DNA from: a virus | Virus record (IMG/VR): IMGVR_UViG_3300032118_000067 | Coordinates: 1 to 21,550 of that record | DNA length: 21,550 bases | Strand: one strand, 5' to 3' | Shown: positions 2,971 to 21,550 of the stretch, piece after piece | Position numbering within the stretch: position 1 is the first letter of the stretch | Layout of the letters: every line of letters begins with the position of its first letter | The notes under the pieces: model-generated | Seen by the model: the letters and a program-made list of their open reading frames with translations, nothing else | Database searches by the model: none | Told to the model about the DNA's origin: nothing | Made by a program: the position numbers and the translations under genes

Positions 2971-2974
2971 TGGT

Positions 2975-3652
2975 TCAGACCTGAGGCCCCCCAGGCGTAT
3001 TGTTCTGCCTCTGGAAGTTAGGCACGTTCAAGTAATTCGCGACCCCACGAGATTCCGGGTTGATACTCATCCCAGGGATCTTCATGATTTCCTCTTCGAC
3101 TTTGAAATTCCAGGACACCTTGAACGCAAACGGTTGGTCGGCAGTCTCTTCAATGTCTATGGATTTAAAGAACCCAATGTACGTACCCCGGTCGTACATC
3201 AACATGATTGAACCTTGCAGCACGATGTTGCCGTAGGGGTCGAAGACACTCCCATTATTGCGGTAGAGGTCGTGCAAGTCTCGGTAGCGGTCCCAAGCAA
3301 TGGTCTTGTGCCGCATCACTGAAGACAGGCCCGTGTAGATGTTCATGAACGCCCCAGTAGACCCGTCAGCCGAGATCTCAGTCAGCTCATCGCCCCAGTG
3401 TTGCTCGACGAAGCCGCCCCTGGTCTGGATGCGCTCTACCTTCTTACTGTGGTTCTCTGAGTAGCTCTGAGGGTTAACATGGAGAACTAAGGCATGCGGT
3501 AGCAAACAACGCCGACTATTGAAAGGACTCGTGACCTGGAAGGCCATCGGGATGTACGACTTACGCTGCTCAAGACCGTGCTGGTAGTTGGGGTTCGTGG
3601 ACGGAACCTGCAACAGATCAGAATCGGGGTTGGCGGAATGGATTGACGGCAT
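2975..3652 (-). CDS. Baseplate / tube-initiator-like structural protein
   Basis: The 225-aa protein contains a domain at about residues 52-187 that is also found in the C-terminal half of the adjacent M15 peptidase: VNPQSY (59-64), VEQHWGDE (82-89), DLYRNNG (128-134) and a YIGFF strand. The NPxSF/Y start of the domain recalls LysM-bearing tail proteins and tube-initiator proteins of contractile injection systems (Afp7 type), which join the tube to the hub; that link is an inference from pattern and position. The ATG at 3652 has a GAGGT ribosome site 4 bases upstream, and the stop codon of the tape measure lies inside that site, so translation is likely coupled. Confidence 0.6.
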   Translation of the reverse strand: MPSIHSANPDSDLLQVPSTNPNYQHGLEQRKSYIPMAFQVTSPFNSRRCLLPHALVLHVNPQSYSENHSKKVERIQTRGGFVEQHWGDELTEISADGSTGAFMNIYTGLSSVMRHKTIAWDRYRDLHDLYRNNGSVFDPYGNIVLQGSIMLMYDRGTYIGFFKSIDIEETADQPFAFKVSWNFKVEEEIMKIPGMSINPESRGVANYLNVPNFQRQNNTPGGPQV

Positions 3653-3659
3653 CTAGACC

Positions 3660-6600
3660 TCAGCGCAGCCGCTTGTTGCGTTCAAATTGGGCAGTACCAT
3701 CAACCACACGAGCGTCAATGAACCGTCGCAAGTCGCCCTTGAGTTCCAGCTCTACCTTCACGTTACCGCCGCCACCACCGCCCCCACCACGTGGGCTAAT
3801 CCGCTCCCCAGTGCCTACCGAGGCTAACCCCTCACCCAGAGCCGGACGAACGTTGGCTATGCCGTTAGCGATGCTGGAGACTATGCCCCCGTCTGCGTTA
3901 GCCGACAGCATGCCACTCAACGCAGCTTGAGAGCTTCCTGTAGCCCTGGCACCGCCTACGATGCCTTGCCCAAACCCACCGGGAGTGAGTTTTCCCTGCA
4001 TCAAGCCCTGAGCGACCGCTCCTTGATCCAGATCCTTGTACATGTAATACTCGAAGAGTCCGGTGCGGATGGCATCAAGGGTCGAGAGGCCTAGCTGATC
4101 GATCGTTGACGTAGCAAGCGGCACCCCTGTTTGAAGGGTGGTGTCCACAGCCAAGGCTGCTTGTGTTGTGGCCTCCTGTGCCTCGTTCCCGCCGCCACGG
4201 GGTACCGGTACCACTCTGGCTGTTGCGGCAATGGGAGCTGCTGTAGGGGTAGCTGCTGTAGCTGCTGTTGTAGCTGGAGCCGCCCGTGGTGCTGTAGCTG
4301 CTGTAGGGGTAGGAGCGCTATTGAAGAAGTCGTATATGGCGTTACCGAGCGAAGCACCCCACTTCTCCGCGCCAGCCATATTAGCAAGCGAGTAGGTAGC
4401 CAGACCAGTAGAAACGGCGACAGCAACTGCTGCTGCTGGTGCAGCGGCGACACTAGTAGCAGCAAGAGTAGCAGCACTAGTTGCTACGCCTGTTAGTGCG
4501 GGCAGTATAGTCTTAGCAGCATTAACGACGATTGGTGTCGCCGCATTAGCAAGAGCCTTACCGCCAGTAGCAAGCCGACCGCCCGCTTGCGCAAGCTTAC
4601 CACCAGCCCCACCCGCAAGACCAGCAAGCTTACCACCACCCCCACCAAGCCCTTTAGCAGCCTCAAAAAGCTTGCCAAGCTTACCACCACCCCCACCAAG
4701 CCCTTTAGCAATATCAACAAGAGCCTTACCACCACCGGATGCGATGATAGCCGCGAGTATAGCTACAGTCGTAAGCCCAAGGCCCTCCAAGACCATGAAG
4801 ATCTTCCCCAGCATTGCATCTACCAGGTCAGAAAACTGATCTAGTGTGGTGACGGTTTCACCTGCTATTCCATCTTGAGCCTTCTTATCCACCTCAGCCT
4901 GAGCCAGTAACTCCTCCTGATCTTTTATGAGGGCGGTTTGCAGCGCCACGTCACCTGAAGCACGCACGGCTGCTGCCCCCGCAGCACCCTTGGTAGTTAC
5001 CCCAAGACGCTTCAAGATCTTCACCTCACTCGCAGTGAGGTCAGTTCCGGCCTCTATCTTATTTGCCAGCTCCTGCCGCTGCACTGATAGACCTGAAATC
5101 ATAGTTTTGAGCTGGTTCACAACCTCAGGACTTTGATCAATGGTATTCTGAACAGCTAAGAGAGCTTTCGGGTCTTTTTTCCCTAGTTCGGAAATACTGG
5201 TATGATGCATACTCTGGACCGCCGCTTCCAACTCTGCCATTGACCCAATTATATCATCAGACTCAAATGCGGCCAGCGATTCAAGAGATCCCTCGATGAC
5301 CCTCCCCATGTCTCTAGTCAACGCAAAGATTGCCTCCCTTTGTGGTCCAGCGGTGTCCTTCTTCTCCTTGTCTGACATCGTGGCAAAAATCTTCTCTACT
5401 TCTTCCGTGTTGCCACTTTCCATAGCTGCCTGAAGTCTAGTCATTGTCTCAGGGGCTAGCTTCAGTTCCCCCGTAGTTGCAGCGATCCCGCGTTTCGCAA
5501 CCCCCCTCTTGATCTCCTGGTATTTAGGCTGGCCAATTATCGCACCCCTTTTTAGCTTTGCGTGAATGTCCTCCTTACCTACCCCAGCGAGTGTCTGAAG
5601 CAGTTTCTGCGCCGACTTGGGATCCATAGCCTTAGCCATTGTACCAAGGACTGAAGTGACATCAGCCATGCGTAGAGCAAAGAGGGACAAGTCAGCCGAG
5701 AAGCTGCGGACGATCCCAAAGAATTTACCAGCATGCATCCCAGCATCCCCAGCAGCCGATGCAACACGTGCAAACTCAGCGGTCGTGCTAGCAGTCCCCA
5801 TCCCCACCTCAGCGACCATCTGCCCCTGGAACTGCGTAAGTTCTTGAAGGCTGACGCCAAAACTACGGGAGTATGCAACAGACGTCCACAAGACGTCGTT
5901 GAAGCTCGACAAGCCGCCAGCCAGGTCCCCCACCGTCTGAGGCACTTTGGCGATCTCTTGGTTCAACCTAGAGGTTGAGACGCCCTCCGCACCCATCTGG
6001 GATCTGAAAGCTACCGCCATTTCCTTTGTAACGCCTTTAGTTATGTTACCCAAGTCCAATGTCTGCTTGTAGGCATCACGCATAGCGGTTTTAGTGGCCT
6101 GGGTCGCTTTACCCACATCACCCATGCTGCCCGCCAAGAAATCCCCCGAACCTGCGGACTCCAAGACAGCTTTGTTGAAATCCTTGAAGGCCTTTTCACC
6201 ATCTAGAAGGAACTTGACGAGCCCCATAACGAGGGACCCAACTATACTCAGCAAGGGTAGTATCTTGCTGATACCTTGAATCAAGGGAGCCATGCTGCCT
6301 GCAAGACTCGCCATGCCTTTGAGGCCAGCCCCCATCCCCTCAGCTTTGGAAGGGTGCTTCTTGATACTCTCACCTAGCTTAGACAGCACCAAGGCCTTCT
6401 TAAGCATCTTAGCGGCAAGCGTACCGCCCTCTTTGAATGCCCCAGGAAGGTCCTTGTTGAGGAGTGCCTGGAACGGCTTCGCCAAATCTTCCCCAGACTC
6501 ACGGAGAGCCGTAGCCAAATGCTTGATGGAACCCGTTGAACCCAGATCAGCACTGCTCGTCTCCCTAGCTTTGGCTAAAGATCGAAGACTCTTTTGCTGC

Positions 6601-7112
6601 TTTTGAAGAGAAGCCAATTCAGACTTCGTGATAGCAGCAACCTGTTCCCGCTCTCGAACTTCATCCCTGGCCGCAGCCACCCTCTCTCTGGCCGCAGCCA
6701 CTTTACTCTCTGCGGCTTTCACAGACGAGCCATCGCCATCCCCACCCTTCCTACGAAGAGCCACCGCAGCTTTTTGAAGGGACAGTAACTCCTTTTCGGC
6801 ATCAATTTGATGCGATTTTAAGTCTTCGCTAGACTTCAAAACTCGATCAAGAGAATCTCTTGTGGTCCTGATCGCCTCCTTGATTGCCTTGCGAACCTTC
6901 AATTCCTTCTGCAAGACAGGGCCAACCATCTGCTTGGCACGACCCATCTTGTGGATGTACTTCGTGAGACCGTTGTTCAGGTCCTTCTCCGACTTCTCAA
7001 CCATTTTGAGACGCTTAGTCAGCGCTTTCTGAAACCGGGTCGCCTCCAAGATCGCGGTCTGAGATTCGAGCGCAAACTTGATATTGACTACTTCTGGTCT
7101 TGGGTCAGCCAC
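3660..7112 (-). CDS. Tape measure protein
   Basis: At 1150 aa this is among the two longest proteins here and has the classic layout. Residues about 12-215 are charged, heptad-rich coiled coil. The middle is helical. A hydrophobic segment near 783-795 is followed by Gly-Lys-rich repeats (800-850), an Ala/Val-rich membrane-like stretch (about 864-907), an Ala/Pro/Thr linker (925-975) and a poly-Gly run just before the C-terminus. Tape measures fill the tail tube, set its length and leave with the DNA at infection. Using the known rule of about 0.15 nm per residue the tail would be near 170 nm (inference). The start is GTG at 7112, with AGGAAG about 9 bases upstream, and lies 3 bases after the previous stop. 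Position downstream of two chaperone-like genes fits. No peptidase or lysozyme motif was seen inside it. Confidence 0.92.
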   Translation of the reverse strand: MADPRPEVVNIKFALESQTAILEATRFQKALTKRLKMVEKSEKDLNNGLTKYIHKMGRAKQMVGPVLQKELKVRKAIKEAIRTTRDSLDRVLKSSEDLKSHQIDAEKELLSLQKAAVALRRKGGDGDGSSVKAAESKVAAARERVAAARDEVREREQVAAITKSELASLQKQQKSLRSLAKARETSSADLGSTGSIKHLATALRESGEDLAKPFQALLNKDLPGAFKEGGTLAAKMLKKALVLSKLGESIKKHPSKAEGMGAGLKGMASLAGSMAPLIQGISKILPLLSIVGSLVMGLVKFLLDGEKAFKDFNKAVLESAGSGDFLAGSMGDVGKATQATKTAMRDAYKQTLDLGNITKGVTKEMAVAFRSQMGAEGVSTSRLNQEIAKVPQTVGDLAGGLSSFNDVLWTSVAYSRSFGVSLQELTQFQGQMVAEVGMGTASTTAEFARVASAAGDAGMHAGKFFGIVRSFSADLSLFALRMADVTSVLGTMAKAMDPKSAQKLLQTLAGVGKEDIHAKLKRGAIIGQPKYQEIKRGVAKRGIAATTGELKLAPETMTRLQAAMESGNTEEVEKIFATMSDKEKKDTAGPQREAIFALTRDMGRVIEGSLESLAAFESDDIIGSMAELEAAVQSMHHTSISELGKKDPKALLAVQNTIDQSPEVVNQLKTMISGLSVQRQELANKIEAGTDLTASEVKILKRLGVTTKGAAGAAAVRASGDVALQTALIKDQEELLAQAEVDKKAQDGIAGETVTTLDQFSDLVDAMLGKIFMVLEGLGLTTVAILAAIIASGGGKALVDIAKGLGGGGGKLGKLFEAAKGLGGGGGKLAGLAGGAGGKLAQAGGRLATGGKALANAATPIVVNAAKTILPALTGVATSAATLAATSVAAAPAAAVAVAVSTGLATYSLANMAGAEKWGASLGNAIYDFFNSAPTPTAATAPRAAPATTAATAATPTAAPIAATARVVPVPRGGGNEAQEATTQAALAVDTTLQTGVPLATSTIDQLGLSTLDAIRTGLFEYYMYKDLDQGAVAQGLMQGKLTPGGFGQGIVGGARATGSSQAALSGMLSANADGGIVSSIANGIANVRPALGEGLASVGTGERISPRGGGGGGGGNVKVELELKGDLRRFIDARVVDGTAQFERNKRLR
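4236..4312 (-). repeat. Direct repeats coding an Ala/Pro/Thr linker in the tape measure
   Basis: The 17-base string agctgctgtaggggtag occurs at 4236-4252 and again at 4296-4312 (60-base spacing), with shorter copies of agctgctgta between them. On the coding strand it yields the low-complexity Ala/Thr/Pro linker of the tape measure. Period is a multiple of three, so copy changes would keep the frame. Confidence 0.75.
4625..4710 (-). repeat. Tandem 35-bp identical repeat, 51-bp period, in the tape measure
   Basis: A 35-base string beginning caagcttaccaccaccc is identical at 4625-4659 and 4676-4710. The 51-base period equals 17 codons and codes for the AKGLGGGGGKL units of the tape measure. A degraded third copy lies just upstream on the plus axis (near 4590-4624). 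Confidence 0.85.
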
Positions 7113-7115
7113 TTG

Positions 7116-8396
7116 TCACGTCTTCCTTCGGAATGGAGTCGTAGGGGTCCTGGGAGCAGGCAGTTGAACAGCCCCTGATATATCCCGATCTGTAGTAGAA
7201 ACTTCAGTCGAGACTTCCGGACCCGTGACACCCCACTTACCCAAGAAGTTCTGCGCCTTCTCGTCCTGGTCCACAGAGTCCATGTGACGGTGCACTTGCT
7301 GTGCCTGTTGCTTGCGGCGCTCCACCCGATCAGCCACCTCTCGTGGTGTCAAACCTTCCCGCGCATCTGAGTTGCCCACGACATTGCGATCCCCGAACTG
7401 AACCGCGTTCTCTCTAGCTACCTGCTCAACCTGAACACGGCGATCATTGTACTGATTGCGGATCTTAGTCTCATGATCCTCAATCACTCTGTCGTGCCAG
7501 TCCTTCTCCCCTCGGAGATCCTTCTCTAGCTGACTAGCAAGTTCCTCAACCGTCCTCGGAACGGTGATCACAGCTCCTGGGATCTTGAGTACGTTCGCCT
7601 CTTGCTTCTCACCCAAGATGATCTCACGAAGGATCTTGTCCTTACGAGAAAGGCGTTCTTCCTTGTCCTTACGCCTACGTTCGTTGTCCTGGTTGTAGAC
7701 CTTGGCTATGCCCTTACCCGCAAAGCAGGAACCAACGAACTTGGCGTTTTCCCACTCACGCTCATGCTGTTCGTTCCGGTCCTCCGCATGATTGAGAGCC
7801 CGCCAAAGCTGCTGTGACCAGTTAAGCCCGAGCCGCTGAGTCCCCTCAATACCAGTCACAGCGGTAGACGTTAGGTCCAGACCCTTGATCTGCATCCAGC
7901 GATACCGGGATAACGACTCCATCGCGTAAGCCTCAGTAAGGGCTACCGCGTTGGATGCCCGCCGATTAACCTCACCCACATACCGCACGATCTTAGATCG
8001 TGCATCCTTAGGCAGAGATCCGAATGTGTCCGCTAGTTTGGGTATCCATTTGTCACGCTCAACGAGGATGTTAACCCCATCGACCATGAACACCCCGTAA
8101 GCCAAGAATGTCCACCAAAATTGCTCCGTAACCCGTCCCTCACGAAAGCCCCCGCTGAACCGCAGTAGCTCGAATTCGTGGTGATTCAGGCTCTTAAAGA
8201 CGAAGCTGACACTGTTGATCTCCGCAGATACCGTAAGGAACCCACGGTAGAGCAGAGGCTCAACGTCCTTCCAAACCTCGGGATTAACCTCCGGTTCTTT
8301 CGGGATGGTGATGTGGATGTCTTCCGCAGAGTTACCACTGTACTCCGCTTGAAGCTTAGTCTGCTCTGACTCGTATGTCTGGGTTGCTTCAGGCAT
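7116..8396 (-). CDS. Tail protein upstream of tape measure, chaperone-like paralogue
   Basis: This 426-aa protein has no family I can name firmly. Residues about 60-160 follow the same pattern as the next upstream gene product: a strand plus helix (FVFKSLNHHEFELLR), a hydrophobic helix ending in a G-V turn (WTFLAYGVFMVDGVNIL), then helices (PKLADTFGSLPKDARSKIV, VNRRASNAV). Residues about 160-230 are helical with GLNWSQQLWRALNHAEDR. From about 230 on it is very highly charged (many KxxRR and EE), consistent with coiled coil, and ends in a Pro/Thr-rich tail. The place between a chaperone-like gene and the tape measure is where tailed phages encode their second tail assembly chaperone, which coats the tape during tube growth. 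No frameshift link to the previous gene is evident: they are separate frames with an 11-base gap. Confidence 0.55.
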   Translation of the reverse strand: MPEATQTYESEQTKLQAEYSGNSAEDIHITIPKEPEVNPEVWKDVEPLLYRGFLTVSAEINSVSFVFKSLNHHEFELLRFSGGFREGRVTEQFWWTFLAYGVFMVDGVNILVERDKWIPKLADTFGSLPKDARSKIVRYVGEVNRRASNAVALTEAYAMESLSRYRWMQIKGLDLTSTAVTGIEGTQRLGLNWSQQLWRALNHAEDRNEQHEREWENAKFVGSCFAGKGIAKVYNQDNERRRKDKEERLSRKDKILREIILGEKQEANVLKIPGAVITVPRTVEELASQLEKDLRGEKDWHDRVIEDHETKIRNQYNDRRVQVEQVARENAVQFGDRNVVGNSDAREGLTPREVADRVERRKQQAQQVHRHMDSVDQDEKAQNFLGKWGVTGPEVSTEVSTTDRDISGAVQLPAPRTPTTPFRRKT

Positions 8397-10397: not shown

Positions 10398-10961
10398 TCA
10401 GACGAACAGCCCGTGGATTTCAGTCGCTCTCTTGGAGAGATCAGCGAGGTCGTTACCAACCCACGGTTGCGCAAGGTCCACATTCTGCGCAATCTCGGCA
10501 ACCCGAGACGCAATCTTGTGGAGGTCCTGTTTGGCGCGGACCGAGTCAAACCGCTTGCCAGCGGTCATAAGACGGTCAATCGCCTCATCGGTGGCCGCTA
10601 CCTTGGCCACGATATCTTCGGCGGTTTCCACATTGGCGGTGAACGTGTCGTAGGAAGCTGTTTTGAGCATGGTTGATTTCTCCGAGAGGACCTGACGATC
10701 AGGTCCTTGCATAAGAGGGTTAGCAACAGACGAAAAACGCGCCCGCCTGAAAGGCAACATCGCCCACATACGGTCGAGATCCACCGACAGCATCACCTGC
10801 TTGGAATCCACGAACTCTTTGAGCGCCACTCTGGCGGTCCGCGACGGAACCAGTCCAGTGATCAACTTGAGCACAGAGACCGGACCTAGCATGAAACGTT
10901 GATTCTGCACCTCAACGTAGTCAACGAACCCATCAGTCCCAAACACTACTAAACTTCGCAC
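10398..10961 (-). CDS. Uncharacterised protein upstream of tail tube
   Basis: I do not recognise a named family. With the GTG at 10961 the product is 187 aa. That start has GGGGAG 8 bases upstream and overlaps the stop of the HNH gene by one base (TAGTG), which I prefer to the longer in-frame ATG at 11003 that would overlap the HNH gene by 43 bases and has no such site. The N-terminal half has hydrophobic strands and helices (MLGPVSVLKLITGLVP, VMLSVDLDRMWAML); the C-terminal 90 residues are helical and charged. An internal ATG at 10670 with a GGAG site 9 bases upstream could make a 90-aa second product. Being directly before the tube gene suggests a tail or neck role, but nothing in the sequence proves it. 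Confidence 0.65.
   Translation of the reverse strand: MRSLVVFGTDGFVDYVEVQNQRFMLGPVSVLKLITGLVPSRTARVALKEFVDSKQVMLSVDLDRMWAMLPFRRARFSSVANPLMQGPDRQVLSEKSTMLKTASYDTFTANVETAEDIVAKVAATDEAIDRLMTAGKRFDSVRAKQDLHKIASRVAEIAQNVDLAQPWVGNDLADLSKRATEIHGLFV
10687..10707 (-). other. Perfect 9-bp hairpin inside a coding region
   Basis: aggacctga and tcaggtcct flank a 3-base loop (cga). The hairpin lies inside the 187-aa gene, 16 bases before an internal ATG (10670) that has its own ribosome site. Coding alone does not require such symmetry. Confidence 0.6.
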
Positions 10962-11779
10962 TACATTTGCTCCCCGTAGAACTGTAGCAATTCTTTGGCC
11001 CATCTGATCTTGTCCGCCACTCTTTGACCGGGCGGTTGCGATTTAGACCACAGTTCTAGGTTATGATAAGTAGTACAGTCACACCTGGACCGAAGCAAGC
11101 ACGGCCCAATCGAATTTTCGTGTCTACTGCCGTTCCTATGATGGATATGTTCTGTTTCAGCTAGTTTACGCCCCAGAAATTCAGCAGCCATAACTCTATG
11201 CTCAAGAGCGGACCCAGATTTGTTGGTGCTGTGCTCTGGTCGATAGAGGACACGGTACCCATAGGAATTTAGGTACCCTGTCCCATCAAAAACTTTGATG
11301 GGATCCTCAGCTCGCACAGCACCTTGCTTGTTCCTTGCGTAATGTGCATCACACAAACCACGTCCATAGTGGGGGCGCTGGCACCCTGGAATAACACAAG
11401 CCTTCTCTACAAAGCGATGCTCCGGCAAAGTACCTCGTGTTTTGTGCTGCTTGTAATGCTTTGGGCAATAGCCGTACGCCTTCGGGTAAGCTTGACAGTT
11501 AGCTTCTTGGCAAACACTATATTGACCCTTCGATCTCACAGGTACCGCCGAAACCAAATCCCCCTTCTCTCTCAAACGAACATAGTGAGCGCCGCATAAA
11601 CCCTTAGCTAAACACGGGCGTGAGCAACCCGAAACTAAGCAAAACTCTGCTTGAGTACGCCGTAGTTGCACTGGAGCGTCCAACGGTCGCCCTTTACGAG
11701 CACGTTGATAGTGCACATTGCAGTACCCCTTTAAACGAGACACTCTAGAACAACCTGGTACTGAGCACGGTATTGCCAC
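10961..11779 (-). CDS. HNH endonuclease with four zinc knuckles
   Basis: The 272-aa protein begins with four copies of a C-x4-C-x9-C-x2-HY unit (C5/C10/C20/H23; C47/C52/C62/H65; C90/C95/C105/H108; C128/C133/C143/H146), each followed by basic residues, a common DNA-binding array in phage homing nucleases. After a GYLNSYGYRVLYRPEH linker comes the HNH core: EHRVMAAEFLGRKL (E193, H194), IHHRNGSRHEN (H213, H214, N216) and NLELWSKSQPPGQRV (N240). HNH enzymes cleave DNA using one metal ion. About 15 extra residues with three cysteines (C227, C233, C235) sit between the two halves of the core. The start is GTG at 11779, two codons after an in-frame stop and with AGGGG directly abutting it, so its ribosome site is poorly spaced. 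It is probably a free-standing mobile nuclease gene between tail genes. Confidence 0.88.
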   Translation of the reverse strand: MAIPCSVPGCSRVSRLKGYCNVHYQRARKGRPLDAPVQLRRTQAEFCLVSGCSRPCLAKGLCGAHYVRLREKGDLVSAVPVRSKGQYSVCQEANCQAYPKAYGYCPKHYKQHKTRGTLPEHRFVEKACVIPGCQRPHYGRGLCDAHYARNKQGAVRAEDPIKVFDGTGYLNSYGYRVLYRPEHSTNKSGSALEHRVMAAEFLGRKLAETEHIHHRNGSRHENSIGPCLLRSRCDCTTYHNLELWSKSQPPGQRVADKIRWAKELLQFYGEQM

Positions 11780-11871: not shown

Positions 11872-12270
11872 TCACTTACCCCAATCAACGTAACGGCCAG
11901 CCTCTATGTCCTCTTCCTTGCTGTCATACGCCTCAAGGTAAGCTTCCACTCTGTCCTTGAGATTATCGCGCCAGCCTTGAGTGCGCTTCACAATCGGCGC
12001 TTTACCAGGGACCAGAGAACGGCCCTTCGAGAAGCTATAGAGCTGTACCCGAATCGCATCATCCCCCACCCCAGCACCAGTGGTCCCATGCTGTGCGATC
12101 GAAGTCCAAACACGAATACCCGTTGTGGGACTCAAGTGTAGATCGAAAACAAGCTCACCCCTATGCGCACCCTTCGTAGGCTTGAGAGCACGAAACGCTC
12201 GCTTAAGGAACTTTTCCATATCCTCAAGGGATATCTCAGTGTAGGTTGCCGCCATGGCTCGCTTCTTCAT
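11872..12270 (-). CDS. Uncharacterised 132-aa phage protein
   Basis: No function can be assigned. The protein starts with TYTEISLEDMEKFLKRAF, has a beta-rich centre (ELVFDLHLSPTTGIRVWTSI), a conserved-looking GVGDDAIRVQL stretch, and an RTQGWRDNLKDRVEAYL helix near the end. The arrangement suggests a small globular alpha/beta protein. The ATG at 12270 overlaps the helicase stop (ATGA) and has AGGGGG 6 bases upstream, so it is probably coupled to the helicase and may act with it. A second ATG at 12255 would drop five residues. A 92-base gap without visible signals separates it from the HNH gene. Confidence 0.75.
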   Translation of the reverse strand: MKKRAMAATYTEISLEDMEKFLKRAFRALKPTKGAHRGELVFDLHLSPTTGIRVWTSIAQHGTTGAGVGDDAIRVQLYSFSKGRSLVPGKAPIVKRTQGWRDNLKDRVEAYLEAYDSKEEDIEAGRYVDWGK

Positions 12271-15200
12271 ACTTGCCCCCTACGATCATACGACACGACG
12301 GGGAGTTCATCCGCAAAGCGCTCCATGGTTTCGATAACGTAAGGATCCACCGCTTCCACAGCAGCGGTCTTTTCTCCCGACTCAAACACCTCACCCTTGG
12401 GTACGTTCTCACCCGCGTGCAGCCCAGCCTCATGCACAAACGGGCTGATCCCAGCCCGCATACCACCAGAGGTCTCAGGACACAAAATCTCAAGGTTCAC
12501 AGCAGCTCGGGTCAAAGCCACGTACGCAAGGTTGCGCTCTGCTTTCATCTTCTCAGCCTCCTCCACCGGATCTGGTGGGGGCTCATCGGGACGAGGCTTA
12601 CGAACCGGTGGGAATTTACCCAGAGGCATGAGCACCGAGACATTCGGCCACTCAAGGCCCTTCACGCTGTGTACCGTGGAAAGCGTAATGGCTGGGGGCT
12701 TTGCCCTACGTTGCCCTGGGTCTGCAATCTTGGCCTGCTCCCGCTCCCACTTCTCTGGATCAATACGCAGAGTCTCAGAGAGCTTAGAGTACCGGGCAAT
12801 CTTCGCCACAAACCCTTGAGCCGTCGAAGGGTCCGTTGCACTCTGTTGGTCATTCGCGTTTGGGATTGCCATCTGGTACAAGAACTGGACTGCACCCAAG
12901 CCCTTGCCCGGTACATCTTCCTTCTTCTCGACCCCCAACGAACCTTCCTCGCCAACCTCAGGCACCACCTCTTCTGTTTCGTCTTCCTCCCCATCATCAT
13001 CGGAGAAGATAGCGGTGTCATGCGTGATCTGTTCGCGCAACGTGTTAGTTTCTGTGTAGGCCCCGCGTTCACGGGACCAGCCTGAAACCACAGATGTCAT
13101 CTTGTCCAAGATGTAGTTCAACAGCTTGTCTGTGCTGTTGTCCGCAGCTCCGACAAACTCAGTCAAATCCCGCAAATTCTTGGCCATACCCTTGAGGTTG
13201 TCCGCCAGCTCATCCACACGCTTACCGTACATCCACTCGCCCTTACGGGTGTCCCCACGAGCCGAGCTGATGATCTTGATCCTGTATGGCTGTTTGAGCT
13301 TGTCCGCCAAAAGCCTAATGTTACGGCTCTCCAACAACGCCATGGGGCTCACGGACTTGATGTCCACTCGCTCACGCCTAGACAGGTCATCAAGAGCCTC
13401 ATCCACGGCCCTCGTTACATCATCTGGGCCCAAGTATAGCCCACGGTCAGGCTTCATGAGCGCAGAGACGAGAGAACCCTTCATCTTCTCGTAATCGTTA
13501 CCCGTGATGAGGTCTAGGTACCCCAGGACTGCCTTGGACTCAGGGGCTTCCAAGAAGCCTTTACCACCACGCCGCACGTAGGGGATCTCGTTAATGATGC
13601 AGGCAGTCTCGAAGTCGTTCAACTCTGCGTTGGTACGAGCCAAAACCGCGTAATCCTCAGCCTTAGCATCCTCGGTTGAGATGTCCTTGACGACACGACC
13701 AATGGTTTGGATCGCCGCATCCGTATTGTCGTTAGGCGTGTCCACAATGATCGAAGCCTTACCCCTAGCTTTCTTAGGGTTAGCTCGGGCCTCCATAGGG
13801 ATATTGCCATCATTGTGGGCAACTAAGCGATTGGCCGCGTCAACGATCTCCGCTTCACAACGGTAGTTTGTCTTGATCATCCGGGTCTTCCAACCCTCTT
13901 TGCCATCGAGACTCGTGAACAGCTCAGGACGTGCCCCGCGAAATTGGTAGATGGCCTGCTTATCGTCACCGATCATCCAGAGAGACTTGCCATCAGAGCC
14001 ATCCCCGATGTGCTCAGTCATCAACTCAAAGATCTGGTGCTGCACAAGATTCAAGTCCTGGCACTCATCGACCAAGAAGTGATCAAACATGCCCTGAACC
14101 ATCGCCTTGGCCTTCGGGTCCCGCTTCAAGATCTGCTGGAACACCTTGAGCATGTCGTCCAGGTCACCCAGACGTTCCCCACCCGGACGATTCTTCTTCA
14201 TGAAGTTGTCGTAAGCGGGAGATATGCATGGGGGACGCCACCCAGGAATGTCCCCCTTAACCCCCATGTACATCTCGTACCAGACAACCGCTTGAGCCTC
14301 CGCCTTCGAGGTGACCTTCTTCTTGGCCTCCTCAAGGCTCACGTCATTGCCCCGCCACTTGTTCAAGAGCAGACCGGCCTTCTTAGCCTTAGGGGGCTCC
14401 ACCAACCACTCGACCGGAAAGCCGAAGCGGCTAGCCAGCGCTTCCACATCGCAGTTGGTCCAAATGTTACGAATAGCGATTGAAAGCGTGGTCGGACTCA
14501 CCGACCTCACGCCCTTCTTGGCCGGAGCAATCAGACGGGGCGGTTTGAGCATCGCCTGTTCCTCAGGTGTGCCAAACCCAGGCACCTGACGGTCCCCCGT
14601 GATGAACTTGTAGAACAAGGAGTGCATGGTGCCGACCTGGACCCCAACATCGGAGCCATCGGTACCCAACTTCTTCGCAATCTTACCCTTGAGTTCGTCA
14701 GCCGCCTTACGATTGAACGAACAGGCAAGAATACGGTTGGGGTTCTGCTTGCGTTCCTTCACCAAGTAGTCGATGCGAGCCACGAGCGTGGTGGACTTAC
14801 CAGCACCCGCACCAGCAGCAACCAACACCTTCCCATCGGTAAGCGCTGCCGCTTGCTGCTCATCATCCAAACCCCGGAGAGAAGCCGGTACGTTGGTGGA
14901 CTTGCTCGGGTCCGTCATGGCGGCAGCCACCGCTGCGGTAGCAATGCCCACAACCTCAGACTTGTTCGGGGGCACATCAGGCTCTCCAGAAACTTCCATG
15001 GCCCTCTGAGCCGCCCCAGTGGCCCGCGTCTGCATGTCCAGAAGGATTTGGGCGTGCTGGTCCGCAGCCTGTTGGCTGTCCTCGGAAGCTGGAGTCGCCG
15101 CCTGCTGTTGAGCCTTGGCAGCATACAGTGAATCGAGGTCTGCTGCTGCCTCATCGCCGCCCACCGACACTGCGTTCTGGAACGACCCTGAACCAGCGGT

Positions 15201-15731
15201 CTCCGCCGCCATGTCGATCCACTTACGCAGCCTCTGGTTCTTCATCGGGATGACAGCGAACTTGTCGAGAGCCTGATCCGCATCATCCACCATAGAAGCA
15301 GCCAACGCTGCCTTAACCTCTAGCAGCGCCTTGTTCGACTTGAACACAGCCCGCATCGTGGAGGCACCGCCCCTCGAAAGAAGCGTGCGCATCTGGAGAC
15401 TACGACGACCAAGTCCCTGTGTGTTTGGCAAGAACCGGAAGGCCTTGTCCAACATCCGCTTGTGGTTGGCACTCGGAAGACTGTCCCCCAAGAAGGCTTG
15501 AATTGTCGCCATGTGACGTCGATCCGCAAGCTTGATGAGCTGTACGCCCTTCCGAATCAGTTCGTCCTCAACCCCCTCACCCGCCGTTTCCTCAACGTAA
15601 CGAGTGTAGGTGTCGAGCGCGAGAAGCATCACGATATATTCGGCAATCTCAAGTTCCCCAATGTCATCATCAGGTTCAGGTTCAGGTTCCGCTGCCACCC
15701 GACGAACAACGCGCTCTGAAAGACTTGTCAT
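12267..15731 (-). CDS. UvrD/PcrA/Rep-type superfamily 1 helicase with long N-terminal extension
   Basis: All SF1A motifs are present in order (residues counted from 15731): Q-like LDDEQQ (288-293), Walker A AGAGAGKST (306-314, K312), motif Ia SFNRKAADELK, VGTMHSLFYKF, Walker B VDECQD (about 555), GDDKQAIYQFRGA (about 590), IKTNYRCEAEI, TVHSVKGLEWPNV (about 1025) and AYVALTRA (about 1072). Such enzymes move 3'-5' on single-stranded DNA. The first 290 residues are extra: an acidic EPEPEPDDD start, helices, then an Ala/Gln-rich stretch. A very acidic insert lies near 905-940. The ATG at 15731 has GGAG 8 bases upstream and is preferred to the in-frame 15782 start, which would run into the previous gene. 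At 1154 aa it is far longer than UvrD (about 720). Finding a helicase among tail genes is unusual. Confidence 0.93.
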   Translation of the reverse strand: MTSLSERVVRRVAAEPEPEPDDDIGELEIAEYIVMLLALDTYTRYVEETAGEGVEDELIRKGVQLIKLADRRHMATIQAFLGDSLPSANHKRMLDKAFRFLPNTQGLGRRSLQMRTLLSRGGASTMRAVFKSNKALLEVKAALAASMVDDADQALDKFAVIPMKNQRLRKWIDMAAETAGSGSFQNAVSVGGDEAAADLDSLYAAKAQQQAATPASEDSQQAADQHAQILLDMQTRATGAAQRAMEVSGEPDVPPNKSEVVGIATAAVAAAMTDPSKSTNVPASLRGLDDEQQAAALTDGKVLVAAGAGAGKSTTLVARIDYLVKERKQNPNRILACSFNRKAADELKGKIAKKLGTDGSDVGVQVGTMHSLFYKFITGDRQVPGFGTPEEQAMLKPPRLIAPAKKGVRSVSPTTLSIAIRNIWTNCDVEALASRFGFPVEWLVEPPKAKKAGLLLNKWRGNDVSLEEAKKKVTSKAEAQAVVWYEMYMGVKGDIPGWRPPCISPAYDNFMKKNRPGGERLGDLDDMLKVFQQILKRDPKAKAMVQGMFDHFLVDECQDLNLVQHQIFELMTEHIGDGSDGKSLWMIGDDKQAIYQFRGARPELFTSLDGKEGWKTRMIKTNYRCEAEIVDAANRLVAHNDGNIPMEARANPKKARGKASIIVDTPNDNTDAAIQTIGRVVKDISTEDAKAEDYAVLARTNAELNDFETACIINEIPYVRRGGKGFLEAPESKAVLGYLDLITGNDYEKMKGSLVSALMKPDRGLYLGPDDVTRAVDEALDDLSRRERVDIKSVSPMALLESRNIRLLADKLKQPYRIKIISSARGDTRKGEWMYGKRVDELADNLKGMAKNLRDLTEFVGAADNSTDKLLNYILDKMTSVVSGWSRERGAYTETNTLREQITHDTAIFSDDDGEEDETEEVVPEVGEEGSLGVEKKEDVPGKGLGAVQFLYQMAIPNANDQQSATDPSTAQGFVAKIARYSKLSETLRIDPEKWEREQAKIADPGQRRAKPPAITLSTVHSVKGLEWPNVSVLMPLGKFPPVRKPRPDEPPPDPVEEAEKMKAERNLAYVALTRAAVNLEILCPETSGGMRAGISPFVHEAGLHAGENVPKGEVFESGEKTAAVEAVDPYVIETMERFADELPVVSYDRRGQV

Positions 15732-15765
15732 ACTTGACTCCAAACAACCTAAAGAATAACGATGT

Positions 15766-16338
15766 CTAGCACAGTGGATCACGAGCTGGGGGACAGTTTG
15801 GCCCCAAGAAAGGAAACTGCGGGGGACACTGCGGGGAACTGGGTTGCGGTTGCGGAACCATCGGGATGTTGGGGAACACCCTGATCAACCGAGGACGAAA
15901 GTTCATCACTAGAGCGTATTCCGTGAGCGTAGCTCTACCATCCGCCACGCAAACGCGAAAGGCCAAACAGCCCCAAGTGTTCCTCGGGATCTCAATCGTG
16001 TTGTCCTCCCACCCCTGCACAGTGGGCAACGGAACCCCGTACATGGCCGCCACATCGGCCTGCGTGAGCTGCAACGCCTCCCGGAGAAAAGCGAAGCTCT
16101 CCCCACGGATAAGCCCCATTTGAACCAAAGTCGAGGCCGCCCTGAGATTCGCCGCCTTCTGCACCGGGGCCGAAAAGGTCGGCCCCCATTGGTACAAACG
16201 CCCCGGCACCGCCGCCACGAAAATGAGTCCAGTGGACCCCACGGGCATCAACAGGTCGAAAAGCCCGATCTTACCCACTTGCTCGGGGTAGTCATTTTCG
16301 AGTACGACTATGGGGAACTGGTTAAGGTCGTCGGCCAT
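15766..16338 (-). CDS. XRE-like helix-turn-helix protein with Pro/Cys-rich tail
   Basis: Residues about 80-112 form a Cro/C1-type helix-turn-helix: FLREALQLTQADVAAMYGVP followed by LPTVQGWED, with the LTQxxVAxxxGV and TVxxWE positions typical of the family. Residues 1-79 are hydrophobic strands and loops I cannot assign. The last 30 residues are Pro/Gln/Cys-rich (three Cys), unusual for a repressor. The ATG at 16338 has AGGA 7 bases upstream, so I prefer it over GTG at 16362. It diverges from the only plus-strand gene across 47 bases that contain a 10-bp palindrome, so autoregulation and control of the neighbour are plausible. A DNA-binding role is well supported; its targets are inferred. 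Confidence 0.75.
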   Translation of the reverse strand: MADDLNQFPIVVLENDYPEQVGKIGLFDLLMPVGSTGLIFVAAVPGRLYQWGPTFSAPVQKAANLRAASTLVQMGLIRGESFAFLREALQLTQADVAAMYGVPLPTVQGWEDNTIEIPRNTWGCLAFRVCVADGRATLTEYALVMNFRPRLIRVFPNIPMVPQPQPSSPQCPPQFPFLGPNCPPARDPLC

Positions 16339-17244: not shown

Positions 17245-17376
17245 CTACCGCCTACCATCGAGGTCCACATCTTCCATGAACTCAAAGAGCTTGTGTAACG
17301 CCCGTTCGTACAGCGTCCGAGGGGGGTTCCGCGTGCGATCGTAAACCCAGTGCCACAAGCGATCCCACCTACTCAT
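17245..17376 (-). CDS. Uncharacterised 43-aa basic protein
   Basis: A short frame starts with ATG at 17376, overlapping the stop of the upstream 89-aa gene (ATGA), and ends with TAG at 17245, one base from the stop of the convergent plus-strand gene. The product begins MSRWDRLWHWVYDRTRN, is rich in Trp and Arg, and ends VDLDGRR. The exact fit between two genes and the ATGA overlap are the main evidence that it is real. No function can be stated. Confidence 0.55.
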   Translation of the reverse strand: MSRWDRLWHWVYDRTRNPPRTLYERALHKLFEFMEDVDLDGRR

Positions 17377-17642
17377 AACGCATCTAACTCGATCCGACGC
17401 AGCAACGCAATGTGATCCTGGTAAAGCTCAGTACCCGCCAGAGACGATTCCTCAACCGCCTCACGTATCTCTCGGGCTGCCTTGGATGCACCCCCACGAG
17501 TAGGGTTTAGGTAGTACGCCTGGGCCCAGGGACCCAGGGGCCACACAGAGCATAATGTGTGCAAGAGTTCGTAGTCTTCTGGGCTGGCACGCTCGATAGG
17601 TTCGGGCGCAGATAGCTTCCTCAGGTACCTCAAGAACCGCAT
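17373..17642 (-). CDS. Uncharacterised 89-aa protein
   Basis: No family recognised. It starts MRFLRYLRKLSAPEP, has a hydrophobic Trp/Pro/Tyr-rich centre (SVWPLGPWAQAYYLN) and a charged helical end (AAREIREAVEESSLAG, HIALLRRIELDAL). It begins 25 bases after the nuclease-methyltransferase stop, with no Shine-Dalgarno site, and ends in an ATGA overlap with the 43-aa frame, so the three are likely one transcript. A small partner of the methyltransferase protein is possible but unproven. Confidence 0.6.
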   Translation of the reverse strand: MRFLRYLRKLSAPEPIERASPEDYELLHTLCSVWPLGPWAQAYYLNPTRGGASKAAREIREAVEESSLAGTELYQDHIALLRRIELDAL

Positions 17643-17667: not shown

Positions 17668-19866
17668 TCAAGGCTTCTGCCAAACCAACAAGGGTTCCCG
17701 CTTCATCCCACGCTTGAAACTACGCACGGGCATGTACACAGGTTCCCTAGGAAGCAAACCCAGGCGCTCTACCAAAGGCTGGACCGCCAGATCCAGCCTC
17801 AAACCACCCACAGGCTTCTGAGGCAGATTGAGGACCAGGAAGCCTCCAGGCTTCAAACGCCGAGAAGCCTGAGCCACAACCGCCCCAAGAAAAGACTCCA
17901 CCCACTGCCCAACAGAAAACCCACGTAACGATGCCTCAAACTTCTTCCCGTATACCTCCAAGTCAAAGTACGGAGGTGAGGTGAACACAAGGTCCAAAGG
18001 TTCCCCCGGATCAAAGGTCTGAGCATCACAACACTCCACACGACACCTTGTGGAACACTCAAGAGCCTCTGCCAACGCTTGGTTCCCCTGAGCCGTCTCG
18101 GGCTCCAAGTCCGTGCCGATGTAACAACCCACCCCCGCAGCCATCGCCCCCAAAAGACGGCCCCCATACCCCGCACAAGGGTCCCAAACCACCCCACCCT
18201 TTGGGCAATAGTTCTCGTACACGTACCTGGCCACAGCAGGCCGAAACACACTGGGGGTCCTAGAAAACATCACCACGGCCTTCAACACCCTCTCCGGGGT
18301 CGTCGGGTGCCCCGAATCCAGTTGAAGACGAATCGCTTTCCGCAAAGAAGAATCGTCGTGCCACATGTCCCAGGCACTCAAACCCTTCTGTCGTTCGGCG
18401 TGGTAGCGGTTGGGGAAGAATGTGCCCGCTGCGTAAGCCCCTGCTGTGCTGTAGGGACGGATCAGTGTCGCATCGTCTAGAAAAACTGCGAGCCGCTGTA
18501 AGCGAGTAAACTCGGCCTTGATCTGCACGGAGGGTTTGAGTTCCGGCCAACCGTGACGACGCACAATTTGGAAGATACCTGTCACAACAGAAGCTTTCTC
18601 ATCTTCTGTCTTATTGGACCACTGGAGATGCGAGCCGCCTAGCAAGTCAACCCAAAAAGAACTGCTGGCAACAGGGTCGGTAAATCGGATGACCCTGTAC
18701 TTGTACCCTAACGCCAAAGCCTTGGCTTCTTTAAGCACATCCAGGTCACGTTGACGTTCAAACTCTTCGATGCAGCCATGCCATAACTCGGAATACTGGT
18801 AGTGCTGTTGCCCGTGAGCCTCAATGATCAAGTTGTGCTCTGGGAAGAAACCGTCGAAGTTAAACCGCCACCCGCTAGTTGGGTTGGTGATACGCGGATC
18901 GGACCACTCCCAAACGTAATCGGACTGAAGGAAGGAGGCCGCTTTATCCAGCACAGTCCTTTGCCACGCCAACTTGTTTCGAGTAGGGAGGTTGTACCGC
19001 CTACAGTAGCTAATCACGGTTGATTCAACATGACCTGACGCAACCGTCACGCTTGACACAATCACTCGACCGTTCTCGTCCGCGTGTTTTAGGAGGTCTT
19101 CTTTTGAGAACAAGTCTCTGAACTGTGCCGCTGCCATGACTTCGGACCGCTTTGTACGTAAGGCGTCAGATCGTATCAGAGCCGTGTACTTAGCTTGGTA
19201 CTCCGTTGAGGTAAGACCATGTAACTTGATATGGTTGCTAAGAGTCTCACCCCTAAACCCACACACGGCACAAACCACGTAGTCCTGACCTTCTTGAAGG
19301 CCAGCCCACTTATCGTCCTCAACCTGCCTTCGCACCCCCTCCAAAGCCTTGATGTGTGGATCGTCCCCAGCACTGACCATGTGGTGGGTGAGAGCCTGGT
19401 ACCCAACAAAGCCAGACCCGCAGACCTGGCACCAATGGTCGGAGCCGCGAGCTACGTCCCGCTCACGGTAATGCTCATCCGTTACCCGTACCTTGCCCTT
19501 CCGACTGAGACCAGCCCTTGTACCGGCGTCGGAATGCAACTTCTTGGAACGAGCATCAAAAGCGTCCTTACCGAAAGCCTGGACCCACTTGGCCCGTAGG
19601 GTGTTAGGGCTCACCCCAATACGGGAAGCAACATCCTTAAAGGCTTCGTTAGAGTGGAAAGGCTCAAGGAGTTCCGACTCAGATGCAGTGGACTGCTTGG
19701 GATCGTTTCTGTCACGGATAGCTTGGAACTGTTCTTCCCCAAGCTTCTCCTTCAAGACCATCCGAATGGTGTTAGGGCTGCCCCCAACCCGCTTGCAAAT
19801 GGCCTTCAAGTGCTCTCCACCAACAAAAGCAGTGACCACAGCCTCTACCCAAGGTCCCTTACGCAT
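17668..19866 (-). CDS. Multidomain Vsr-like nuclease / amino-methyltransferase fusion
   Basis: The 732-aa protein has, in order: two helix-turn-helix-like units (KRVGGSPNTIR at 25-35; SRIGVSPNTLR at 81-91, each followed by an FG-like turn); zinc finger 1 (C146, C149, H161, H162); a Ros/MucR-like finger 2 (C199, C202, H212, H216, then HGLTSTEYQAKY); a Vsr/PD-(D/E)XK-like nuclease at about 330-395 with FDGFF (D338), IIEAHGQQHY (E349, H355), RDLDVLKEA (D374, K379) and RVIRF; and a methyltransferase with DPCAGYGGR (562-570, SAM site), TSPPYF (629-634, amino-MTase catalytic motif) and LKPGGFLVLN (671-680). SPPY enzymes methylate N4-cytosine or N6-adenine. One chain could therefore bind, cut and protect DNA. 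The ATG at 19866 has no clear ribosome site; an in-frame TAG lies four codons upstream. Confidence 0.85.
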   Translation of the reverse strand: MRKGPWVEAVVTAFVGGEHLKAICKRVGGSPNTIRMVLKEKLGEEQFQAIRDRNDPKQSTASESELLEPFHSNEAFKDVASRIGVSPNTLRAKWVQAFGKDAFDARSKKLHSDAGTRAGLSRKGKVRVTDEHYRERDVARGSDHWCQVCGSGFVGYQALTHHMVSAGDDPHIKALEGVRRQVEDDKWAGLQEGQDYVVCAVCGFRGETLSNHIKLHGLTSTEYQAKYTALIRSDALRTKRSEVMAAAQFRDLFSKEDLLKHADENGRVIVSSVTVASGHVESTVISYCRRYNLPTRNKLAWQRTVLDKAASFLQSDYVWEWSDPRITNPTSGWRFNFDGFFPEHNLIIEAHGQQHYQYSELWHGCIEEFERQRDLDVLKEAKALALGYKYRVIRFTDPVASSSFWVDLLGGSHLQWSNKTEDEKASVVTGIFQIVRRHGWPELKPSVQIKAEFTRLQRLAVFLDDATLIRPYSTAGAYAAGTFFPNRYHAERQKGLSAWDMWHDDSSLRKAIRLQLDSGHPTTPERVLKAVVMFSRTPSVFRPAVARYVYENYCPKGGVVWDPCAGYGGRLLGAMAAGVGCYIGTDLEPETAQGNQALAEALECSTRCRVECCDAQTFDPGEPLDLVFTSPPYFDLEVYGKKFEASLRGFSVGQWVESFLGAVVAQASRRLKPGGFLVLNLPQKPVGGLRLDLAVQPLVERLGLLPREPVYMPVRSFKRGMKREPLLVWQKP

Positions 19867-19892
19867 ACCAAAAGGCTAGGCCACAGACGCCC

Positions 19893-19938
19893 AAAAAGCA
19901 AGAGGGTCGGGACCGTGTTATCGGACCAGACCCTCTTG
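19893..19938 (-). terminator. Intrinsic terminator after tail sheath gene
   Basis: On the minus strand CAAGAGGGTC (19938-19929) pairs perfectly with GACCCTCTTG (19908-19899); the 20-base loop can form a small inner CCG/CGG stem. CTTTTT follows (19898-19893). The 10-bp stem plus T-run is a standard Rho-independent terminator, 30 bases after the sheath stop codon. Confidence 0.9.
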
Positions 19939-19968
19939 GACTCGTAAGTAGTTGCTTTTACTTGGGTT

Positions 19969-21550
19969 TTATACCCTAGCCCGAAGGTTGAATGTGAGGA
20001 CGATGTACAAAAGTGGAAAAATAGGGCTGTAGAACATCTCGAAGCGGAGGATTGTAGGGTCCTCGGAGTCGATTTCTGCGGACATCCCCGTGAAGGCCCC
20101 GACGATCTCGGCCTGGACCAAGGACTTGAACAGGGAGGTCATGGAGACCACGACTTCGTTGGTACGGCTCGCAAGGAACTTGGTTCCGATGAAGGAATCC
20201 AGGATTGCCCTGCTCTGCTGTTGCACGAAGTCCGCGATCTGCACCACGGTCGGCAACCTGGTCAGAACCGACGTCATGTTCGTGGTCAGACCCTGGCGGA
20301 TTCGGATGATCGGGTCCAAGTCCTCAAGGATCGTGATACCGGCAACTGCCGTCTGGTTAGCTTCGACCGGATCCATGATTCTGGGGATACGGGTAAAGCC
20401 TTGGATGCGACGACGGGTGTAGGGGGTCGCCACGTCCACAGCGGGGGATACAGCGGAACCGGCCACGGCAGCTCCGAAGAAGCTACCGTCAACCAGGCTC
20501 TCGAACGACTGCCCAAGCGAGTCAGTCAGAGTGATGACTGACGAATCTGGGTACAGGGCCAAGATACGTGAGGAGTTCAACCCTCTGGCCACCGTTTGAG
20601 CGGAAGTCGGAGACGTACCGGACGCAAACCCGATGAACCCAATGCGCTCCGACTGGTTACGGATGTTCGACTGGACTTCGCAGTGTGCTGTCAAGTGCGT
20701 GAAGACCGCTGTTGAGGTGGCGAGCGGGATCAAGATATCCGGCTTGATGTTGCCCGGAAGCGGTGTCGCCAACTCGTCGATAGCCGCGTTGAACGCCTGA
20801 TCCGACGCTTGGTTCGTGTTGGGCACCTTCAAGACTTGCTTGATGATAACCAGCACGGCACCGTTCAAGATGGCCAGGTAAGCGGCCAACGTGACGCGGT
20901 TCTCACTCGAAGTTCGACCGAAGTTCGCTTCGATCGTCTTGAGCTGCTGGTAGATCTTCGGGGAGTAGTCTTGCTTCAGGTAGCGGTAGCTAATGAAGTA
21001 GAAGTCCCCCACCGTCGGCTCAACGCCGCTCGGGTTGTATGTGACGAGCGTGGCGGTGTCATTGACGCCCACGCCCACCGTGTTGGATACGAGAAGCTCT
21101 AGGCCGCCCACCGAGTAGCGCGGTACCGAAGGGGACACGTGGAAGGTCGGTCCGACCTCCATCGTGAAGAACCCGGTCGGGGTGTAGCTGCCTGTGGAGG
21201 CCGGGAGGACCGTGAAGCGGAGGCCCGTACGAGCATCCGTGTACGTCTGCCCTGGGGTACCCGTGCCTGCTGAGCCAAGCGGAGACGTTGAGGTCACCAC
21301 GTAGTTGTTCTGGGCGTCCTCACCAACGTCACCGTCGGTGCCGGGGGTGATGCCCGTACCAGAGGTAACGTTGAATGCTGAGTTTGCAGAGGTCGAGAAC
21401 CCAATCGAGGAGGTGGCGGCACCCACCGACAAGGACTCGAAAGTGATGTAGTCCCTGCCACTGATAGGCGCGACATACGCTACAGCACCGGCCGCAAAGA
21501 GAACCGTGTCCATGAGGACATCGACAACCTCTTGCGCTGTGACCAGAGTC
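19969..21550 (-). CDS. Contractile tail sheath protein (5' end outside window)
   Basis: The frame is open from the right edge (526 residues visible, no start required at 21513), so the N-terminus is cut. The visible N-terminal part is a Gly/Thr/Ser-rich beta domain of variable type. The conserved C-terminal half has the order expected of a sheath: RIGFIGFA, SRILALYPDSSVITLTD, DGSFFGAAVAGSAVSPA, ATPYTRRRIQGFTRI, AVAGITILEDLDPIIRIRQG and a last strand PLLYIVLTFNLRARV. Sheath subunits wrap the tube and contract at infection; the final strand is used for subunit linking in the extended sheath. The gene is followed by a strong terminator, consistent with high, separately controlled expression. Confidence 0.9.
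   Translation of the reverse strand, partial: TLVTAQEVVDVLMDTVLFAAGAVAYVAPISGRDYITFESLSVGAATSSIGFSTSANSAFNVTSGTGITPGTDGDVGEDAQNNYVVTSTSPLGSAGTGTPGQTYTDARTGLRFTVLPASTGSYTPTGFFTMEVGPTFHVSPSVPRYSVGGLELLVSNTVGVGVNDTATLVTYNPSGVEPTVGDFYFISYRYLKQDYSPKIYQQLKTIEANFGRTSSENRVTLAAYLAILNGAVLVIIKQVLKVPNTNQASDQAFNAAIDELATPLPGNIKPDILIPLATSTAVFTHLTAHCEVQSNIRNQSERIGFIGFASGTSPTSAQTVARGLNSSRILALYPDSSVITLTDSLGQSFESLVDGSFFGAAVAGSAVSPAVDVATPYTRRRIQGFTRIPRIMDPVEANQTAVAGITILEDLDPIIRIRQGLTTNMTSVLTRLPTVVQIADFVQQQSRAILDSFIGTKFLASRTNEVVVSMTSLFKSLVQAEIVGAFTGMSAEIDSEDPTILRFEMFYSPIFPLLYIVLTFNLRARV

Follow-up and report, generated by a model that had tools for sequence, protein, structure and literature searches.

A homing endonuclease that lies beside its target, not inside it, must spare its own genome, and the usual answer is divergence of the target sequence. 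The free-standing homing elements of phage T4 cut genomes that lack the element and are copied in during repair; in the review of these elements no listed element carries a methyltransferase, and terms for methylation or modification are absent from the text (PMC2988022). Homing endonucleases can also favour their phage over co-infecting rivals (PMC12908238).

The locus described here lies in a 21,550-base IMG/VR virus fragment with tail genes (the window, meaning this whole stretch of DNA), from a jumbo (giant) phage. One of its genes encodes a single chain in which a predicted homing endonuclease is followed by a DNA methyltransferase. The reading favoured, at a probability of roughly 60%, is that of a free-standing ("intronless") EDxHD/Vsr-like homing endonuclease whose C-terminal amino-methyltransferase spares its own conserved target. 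The parts are known, and a search of the open-access literature, which most subscription journals lie outside, found no description of a homing endonuclease-methyltransferase fusion; this suggests that the pairing is new as far as that literature shows.

Domain architecture of the 732-residue protein

The gene occupies 17668..19866 on the minus strand, as do all features of the element and its flanks given below, and is a single unbroken reading frame of 732 codons. An earlier note, made from the sequence alone, had described one chain joining helix-turn-helix (HTH) motifs, zinc fingers, a Vsr-like nuclease and an SPPY methyltransferase, an order now upheld by Pfam, an AF2 model and independent contigs. 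The same one-chain layout recurs in the same genomic place in independent IMG/VR contigs (91% identity in L002, 68% in L003 and L004), which rules out an assembly artefact. Ten distinct fused relatives were found and, together with the window protein, gave 11 full-length proteins for comparison. The Pfam order along the chain is HTH_Tnp_1, C2H2 finger, ROS/MucR and N6_N4_Mtase, several of the single matches being below cut-off. PHROGs places homing/HNH endonuclease models at residues 331-398 and DNA methyltransferase models at 532-684. The full-length AF2 model has a pLDDT of 88.

The N-terminal part is an array of DNA-binding units. Two tandem HTH units (residues 6-98; 19573..19851) appear as three-helix units in the AF2 model, with the Pfam HTH_Tnp_1 match at residues 74-107. 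Two zinc fingers recognized by Pfam follow. In finger 1 (residues 144-167; 19366..19437), all 11 fused proteins keep C146, C149 and H162; in finger 2, of ROS/MucR type (residues 199-216; 19219..19272), C199, C202 and H212 are invariant and H216 is present in 7 of the 11. A third HTH (residues 255-290; 18997..19104) is seen in the AF2 model beside the nuclease.

The nuclease domain (residues ~300-404; 18655..18969) was delimited from the AF2 model, Foldseek and residue invariance. A nuclease fold, which the earlier note had placed at residues 330-395, is predicted with high confidence: residues 241-412, modelled from an alignment of 16 window and IMG/VR sequences, have a mean pLDDT of 88. In a Foldseek comparison with the PDB, E. 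coli Vsr is the top match (1vsr, probability 1.00; 1cw0, 0.94) and sixth place goes to I-Bth0305I, an EDxHD homing endonuclease represented by its catalytic domain (3r3p, 0.90). The E-values are modest, 3.7e-3 at best. When the nuclease alignment was run as a profile against solved structures, one match came up, weak and irrelevant. Against named families, the window protein matches phrog homing/HNH endonuclease models at ~1e-5 and has no Pfam Vsr match; its relative LR756508 reaches Pfam Vsr at that model's cut-off. Residues D338, E349, H351, H355, D376 and K379 are invariant in all 11 distinct fused proteins. The catalytic pattern proposed earlier, D338/E349/H355/D374/K379, is thus retained at four positions and amended at one, since D374 varies and the conserved acid is D376. 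On the model, the domain has the Vsr-like catalytic core of the EDxHD/Vsr-like homing-endonuclease class.

The methyltransferase consists of a variable N-terminal domain (residues 411-512; 18331..18636) and a catalytic domain (residues 531-732; 17671..18276), the latter delimited by the AF2 model and by Pfam N6_N4_Mtase at residues 625-731. It carries the SAM-binding motif I DPCAGYGG (residues 562-569; 18160..18183) and the catalytic motif IV TSPPYF (residues 629-634; 17965..17982). In the full-length model the core is mostly at pLDDT 96-98, two loops excepted. Foldseek matches of this model are class I methyltransferases, including the type IIG enzyme BpuSI, and in a viral library several named cytosine-N4 methyltransferases. 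DPxxGxG and TSPPY, hallmarks of amino-methyltransferases (N4-C/N6-A), are invariant across the 11 fused proteins, which agrees with the motifs picked out in the earlier note; the possibility raised with them, a degenerate methyltransferase half, does not hold. The C-terminal module (residues ~405-732) also occurs alone, as proteins of ~330-346 aa, in Bacteroides phages, in many IMG/VR contigs and in a Vibrio phage, where it is annotated as an N4-cytosine methylase. Its N-terminal domain, present in the stand-alone relatives too, varies more than any other part of the enzyme and lies inside the exchanged block described below; on these grounds it is proposed to be the target-recognition part.

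A probable homing locus behind the tail-sheath gene

The element follows the 3' part of a tail-sheath gene (19969..21513; phrog_2839 tail sheath, 4e-27), the putative homing neighbourhood. A terminator-like hairpin (19893..19937; fold -31.3 kcal/mol, z -4.1 for 19880-19960) stands after the sheath gene and directly before the element, and an 89-aa gene (17373..17642) forms the right flank. No consensus promoter was found upstream of the element gene. A nuclease-alignment scan with an HMM check (E <= 2e-48) gave 50 close nuclease loci in IMG/VR, and 51 jumbo-phage loci were recovered with the sheath protein as query. The sheath gene is directly upstream of the nuclease relative in 50 of 50 loci, the sheath call in L061/L062-type phages being based on C-terminal similarity, not PHROGs (L061 has no PHROGs match). 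Fourteen of these nucleases are fused to the methyltransferase (~10 distinct), 34 are unfused and two run off the contig; among the loci listed, some are the same phage from two samples. The stand-alone nucleases behind the sheath gene are 407-636 aa long and end where the nuclease part of the window protein ends.

Some of the jumbo-phage loci have nothing directly behind the sheath gene, and L010 provides such an empty site. Its sheath gene is followed by the 89-aa gene within ~100 bases; in the window and L004 this interval is filled by 2.2 kb. The L010 sheath protein is 93% identical to that of the window, and its sheath gene has ~83-97% nucleotide identity to that of the element-bearing L004, so the element is present or absent at one site between close genomes. 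The last 150 nt of the sheath gene are less alike than the gene middle, and no clear co-conversion tract was found at the sheath 3' end or flanks in the comparison of L010, L004 and the window. The element behaves as a free-standing homing endonuclease, and its mobility is strongly supported: the mobile-nuclease half of the earlier reading is borne out by the fold class, the fixed place 3' of the sheath gene and the presence or absence between close phages. In the nuclease-domain tree all fused forms make one clade (99% SH-aLRT), which two unfused sequences adjoin. Because the fused forms make a single clade, the methyltransferase was, on this tree, gained once in this nuclease lineage.

Other traces of mobile elements were seen in these phages. 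L011 holds an element remnant behind the sheath gene (7652-8218) that matches window residues 2-180 only and is followed by unrelated genes; it looks like decay of the element after homing. In the window, tail genes flank an HNH endonuclease gene (10961-11779) whose product has several repeats of a CxxC unit resembling a zinc ribbon and is likely a second homing endonuclease. The UvrD-like helicase (window 12267-15782; L003 5690-9166; L004 8724-12206) contains an intein with a LAGLIDADG domain in L003 and L004, inserted at the Walker A site (GAGAGK/S), and has none in the window.

Block exchange and other fusions of the methyltransferase

Part of the gene has been exchanged between phages as a block. 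The window and L002 share 94-100% nucleotide identity over most of codons 200-510 and about 70-90% outside, and L003 and the window share 33-53% protein identity inside the block and 72-93% outside. The exchanged block spans codons 188-512 (18331..19305; 0 of 5000 permutations). It includes the last finger, the third HTH, the nuclease and the methyltransferase N-terminal domain and leaves out the catalytic core. These comparisons point to the nuclease and the methyltransferase N-terminal domain having been swapped together, as expected if the specificities of cutting and modification are linked; the exchange is one event, and its ends may be set by chance. Between the window and L002, dN/dS is 0.15 in the nuclease half and 0.08 in the methyltransferase half and, judged by these values, both halves are under purifying selection.

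The methyltransferase has other nuclease partners. From a scan with the methyltransferase alignment, which gave 574 viral relatives, the best 80 were analysed, together with 24 from a prokaryote genome collection; ~30 of these have an extra N-terminal part of >200 residues, which is nearly always a homing nuclease. At least 22 proteins, LR745208 included, carry a LAGLIDADG_2 (PF03161) homing endonuclease N-terminal to the methyltransferase (17 assigned by Pfam, with E down to 1e-38, and the remainder by a local HMM), and in these fusions the LAGLIDADG catalytic motifs are intact. A GIY-YIG-like fusion was found in L080 only among the relatives analysed; it matches a homing-endonuclease PHROG and was assigned to GIY-YIG by eye. 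Two more Vsr-like fusions are LR756508 (Pfam Vsr and NUMOD3), in which the methyltransferase motif reads TSIPYF, and L118 (by eye). Virion genes recur beside these fusions as well. Many LAGLIDADG fusions are directly 3' of a ~290-aa gene, which is the major head protein (phrog_2522) in 3 of 3 tested. The gene immediately before L080 is a major head gene of phrog_138, and LR756508 also has one upstream, separated from the fusion by another homing-type gene. A quick tree of the methyltransferase groups the fused forms in clusters and puts the EDxHD ones among the LAGLIDADG-linked ones with 90 and 80% support; 5-8 changes of fusion state are needed overall, and inner branches have 80-90% support. 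Read most simply, this tree has one kind of homing nuclease acquiring a methyltransferase that was already moving about with another kind.

Some variants of the arrangement were also recorded. Among the stand-alone methyltransferases, an adjacent but unfused nuclease occurs in L108 only, where a LAGLIDADG gene immediately precedes the methyltransferase (2695-3705 and 3761-4954), possibly a two-gene version of the fusion. L143, a contig binned as Candidatus Altiarchaeales and possibly a virus contig, has tandem LAGLIDADG-methyltransferase genes (2984-5383 and 5392-7440). In L072 a separate LAGLIDADG gene (1930-2898) stands immediately before a LAGLIDADG-methyltransferase fusion, and the contig also holds a stand-alone sheath nuclease (L042). 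A 1229-aa LAGLIDADG-methyltransferase in L006 (2192-5881) has extra zf-CGNR zinc-ribbon units at the C-terminus. The Vsr-methyltransferase gene of the huge phage LR756508 is followed by a row of similar 250-280-aa paralogues without assigned function (L005 5414-9075).

Proposed self-protection, rival readings and known systems

In the favoured reading, the element would act in mixed infections. The HTH and zinc-finger array would read a long site, probably in the sheath gene's highly conserved 3' end; the nuclease would cut a rival genome without the element, which would then be copied in by recombinational repair. Through the same DNA-binding array and its own variable N-terminal domain, the methyltransferase would methylate the donor's own copy of that site. 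The donor would thereby escape cutting even though the target, in an essential structural gene, is too conserved to mutate away. We infer all four of cutting, cut position, methylation and the blocking of cutting by methylation. Self-protection is favoured by the recurrent fusion and by the one block exchange of the nuclease with the methyltransferase N-terminal domain. Protection by methylation cannot be obligatory at the sheath locus, because the 34 close stand-alone nucleases hold the same locus without a methyltransferase. Furthermore, the methyltransferase may recognize a short sequence independently of the nuclease, since its relatives include many stand-alone phage enzymes. Whether the window protein belongs to a wider class of self-protecting homing endonucleases, in which one methyltransferase family on at least three unrelated nuclease superfamilies would mark the element's own copy of targets in highly conserved codons of essential virion genes, those for tail sheath and major head, and the specificities would be exchanged as a cassette, we regard as an even question.

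A methyltransferase with a short site of its own could instead be cargo, guarding phage DNA from host restriction and so paying for the element's keep while sharing the chain and not the target. The stand-alone family members in many phages, the annotated Vibrio phage gene among them, and the presence of the N-terminal domain in those forms are in keeping with this; fusion is unnecessary for a cargo gene, however, and its repetition on at least three nuclease superfamilies, with the joint exchange, points to linked specificity, which leaves cargo a doubtful explanation. The earlier note had left the choice between a self-protecting mobile nuclease and a compact restriction-modification protein. 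The mobile nuclease stands, and a type IIG-like weapon that cuts host or competing phage DNA at many sites, with no single homing site, is improbable: one chain holds both activities and BpuSI is among the methyltransferase-fold matches, but the nuclease relatives are locus-bound, of homing type and mostly without a methyltransferase, the element is present or absent at one site, and the long finger and HTH arrays suggest a long, rare target.

The remaining readings concern the catalytic halves. Loss of activity in one half, leaving DNA binding only, might be suspected from the TSIPYF motif of LR756508; neither active site varies among the 11 fused window-type proteins and purifying selection acts on both halves, which makes it very unlikely, and the invariant catalytic residues rule out a dead nuclease half. 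The product of a C5-methyltransferase deaminates to T, and the solved fold nearest to the nuclease is that of Vsr, which partners Dcm. A role as mismatch-repair partner of the methyltransferase is nonetheless hardly credible and was rejected on methyltransferase class and locus, since TSPPYF and Pfam N6_N4_Mtase indicate an amino-methyltransferase, not a C5 enzyme, and the relatives hold a fixed locus like homing endonucleases.

If self-protection is true, methyltransferase fusion would be a different answer to the problem of sparing the own genome, usable on targets unable to diverge, and the border between homing elements and restriction-modification systems would blur. Since such fusions recur in different nuclease superfamilies, the idea is open to direct test by scoring epigenetic marks in native phage reads. 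Compact nuclease-methyltransferase modules would also be on offer, their specificity block possibly swappable.

Known systems resemble the window protein in part. The EDxHD homing endonucleases, represented by I-Bth0305I, share the Vsr-like catalytic fold, the multi-domain chain, an expected long target and a phage-borne gene (PMC3943268), but I-Bth0305I is described as a nuclease with DNA-binding regions, to which the window protein adds a whole methyltransferase. Like the window element, the Seg and Mob elements of T4, which undergo free-standing, intronless homing, are intergenic, follow a terminator next to a conserved structural gene and are variably present (PMC2988022). An HNH element inserted into a phage methylase (PMC11855218) is a different arrangement from a nuclease-methyltransferase fusion. 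Type IIG enzymes (BpuSI and kin) also have a nuclease followed by a methyltransferase in one chain, whereas in the window protein the nuclease is of homing type and tied to one locus, and recognition would be by the HTH/finger array. Vsr itself, the mismatch endonuclease, is matched in fold; the window protein differs from it in having an N6_N4-type methyltransferase in place of a C5-methyltransferase partner and an extra DNA-binding array. The LAGLIDADG_2 fusions share the C-terminal methyltransferase family and an adjoining structural gene, but their nuclease fold is unrelated and their neighbour is the major head gene, against the tail-sheath gene beside the window element.
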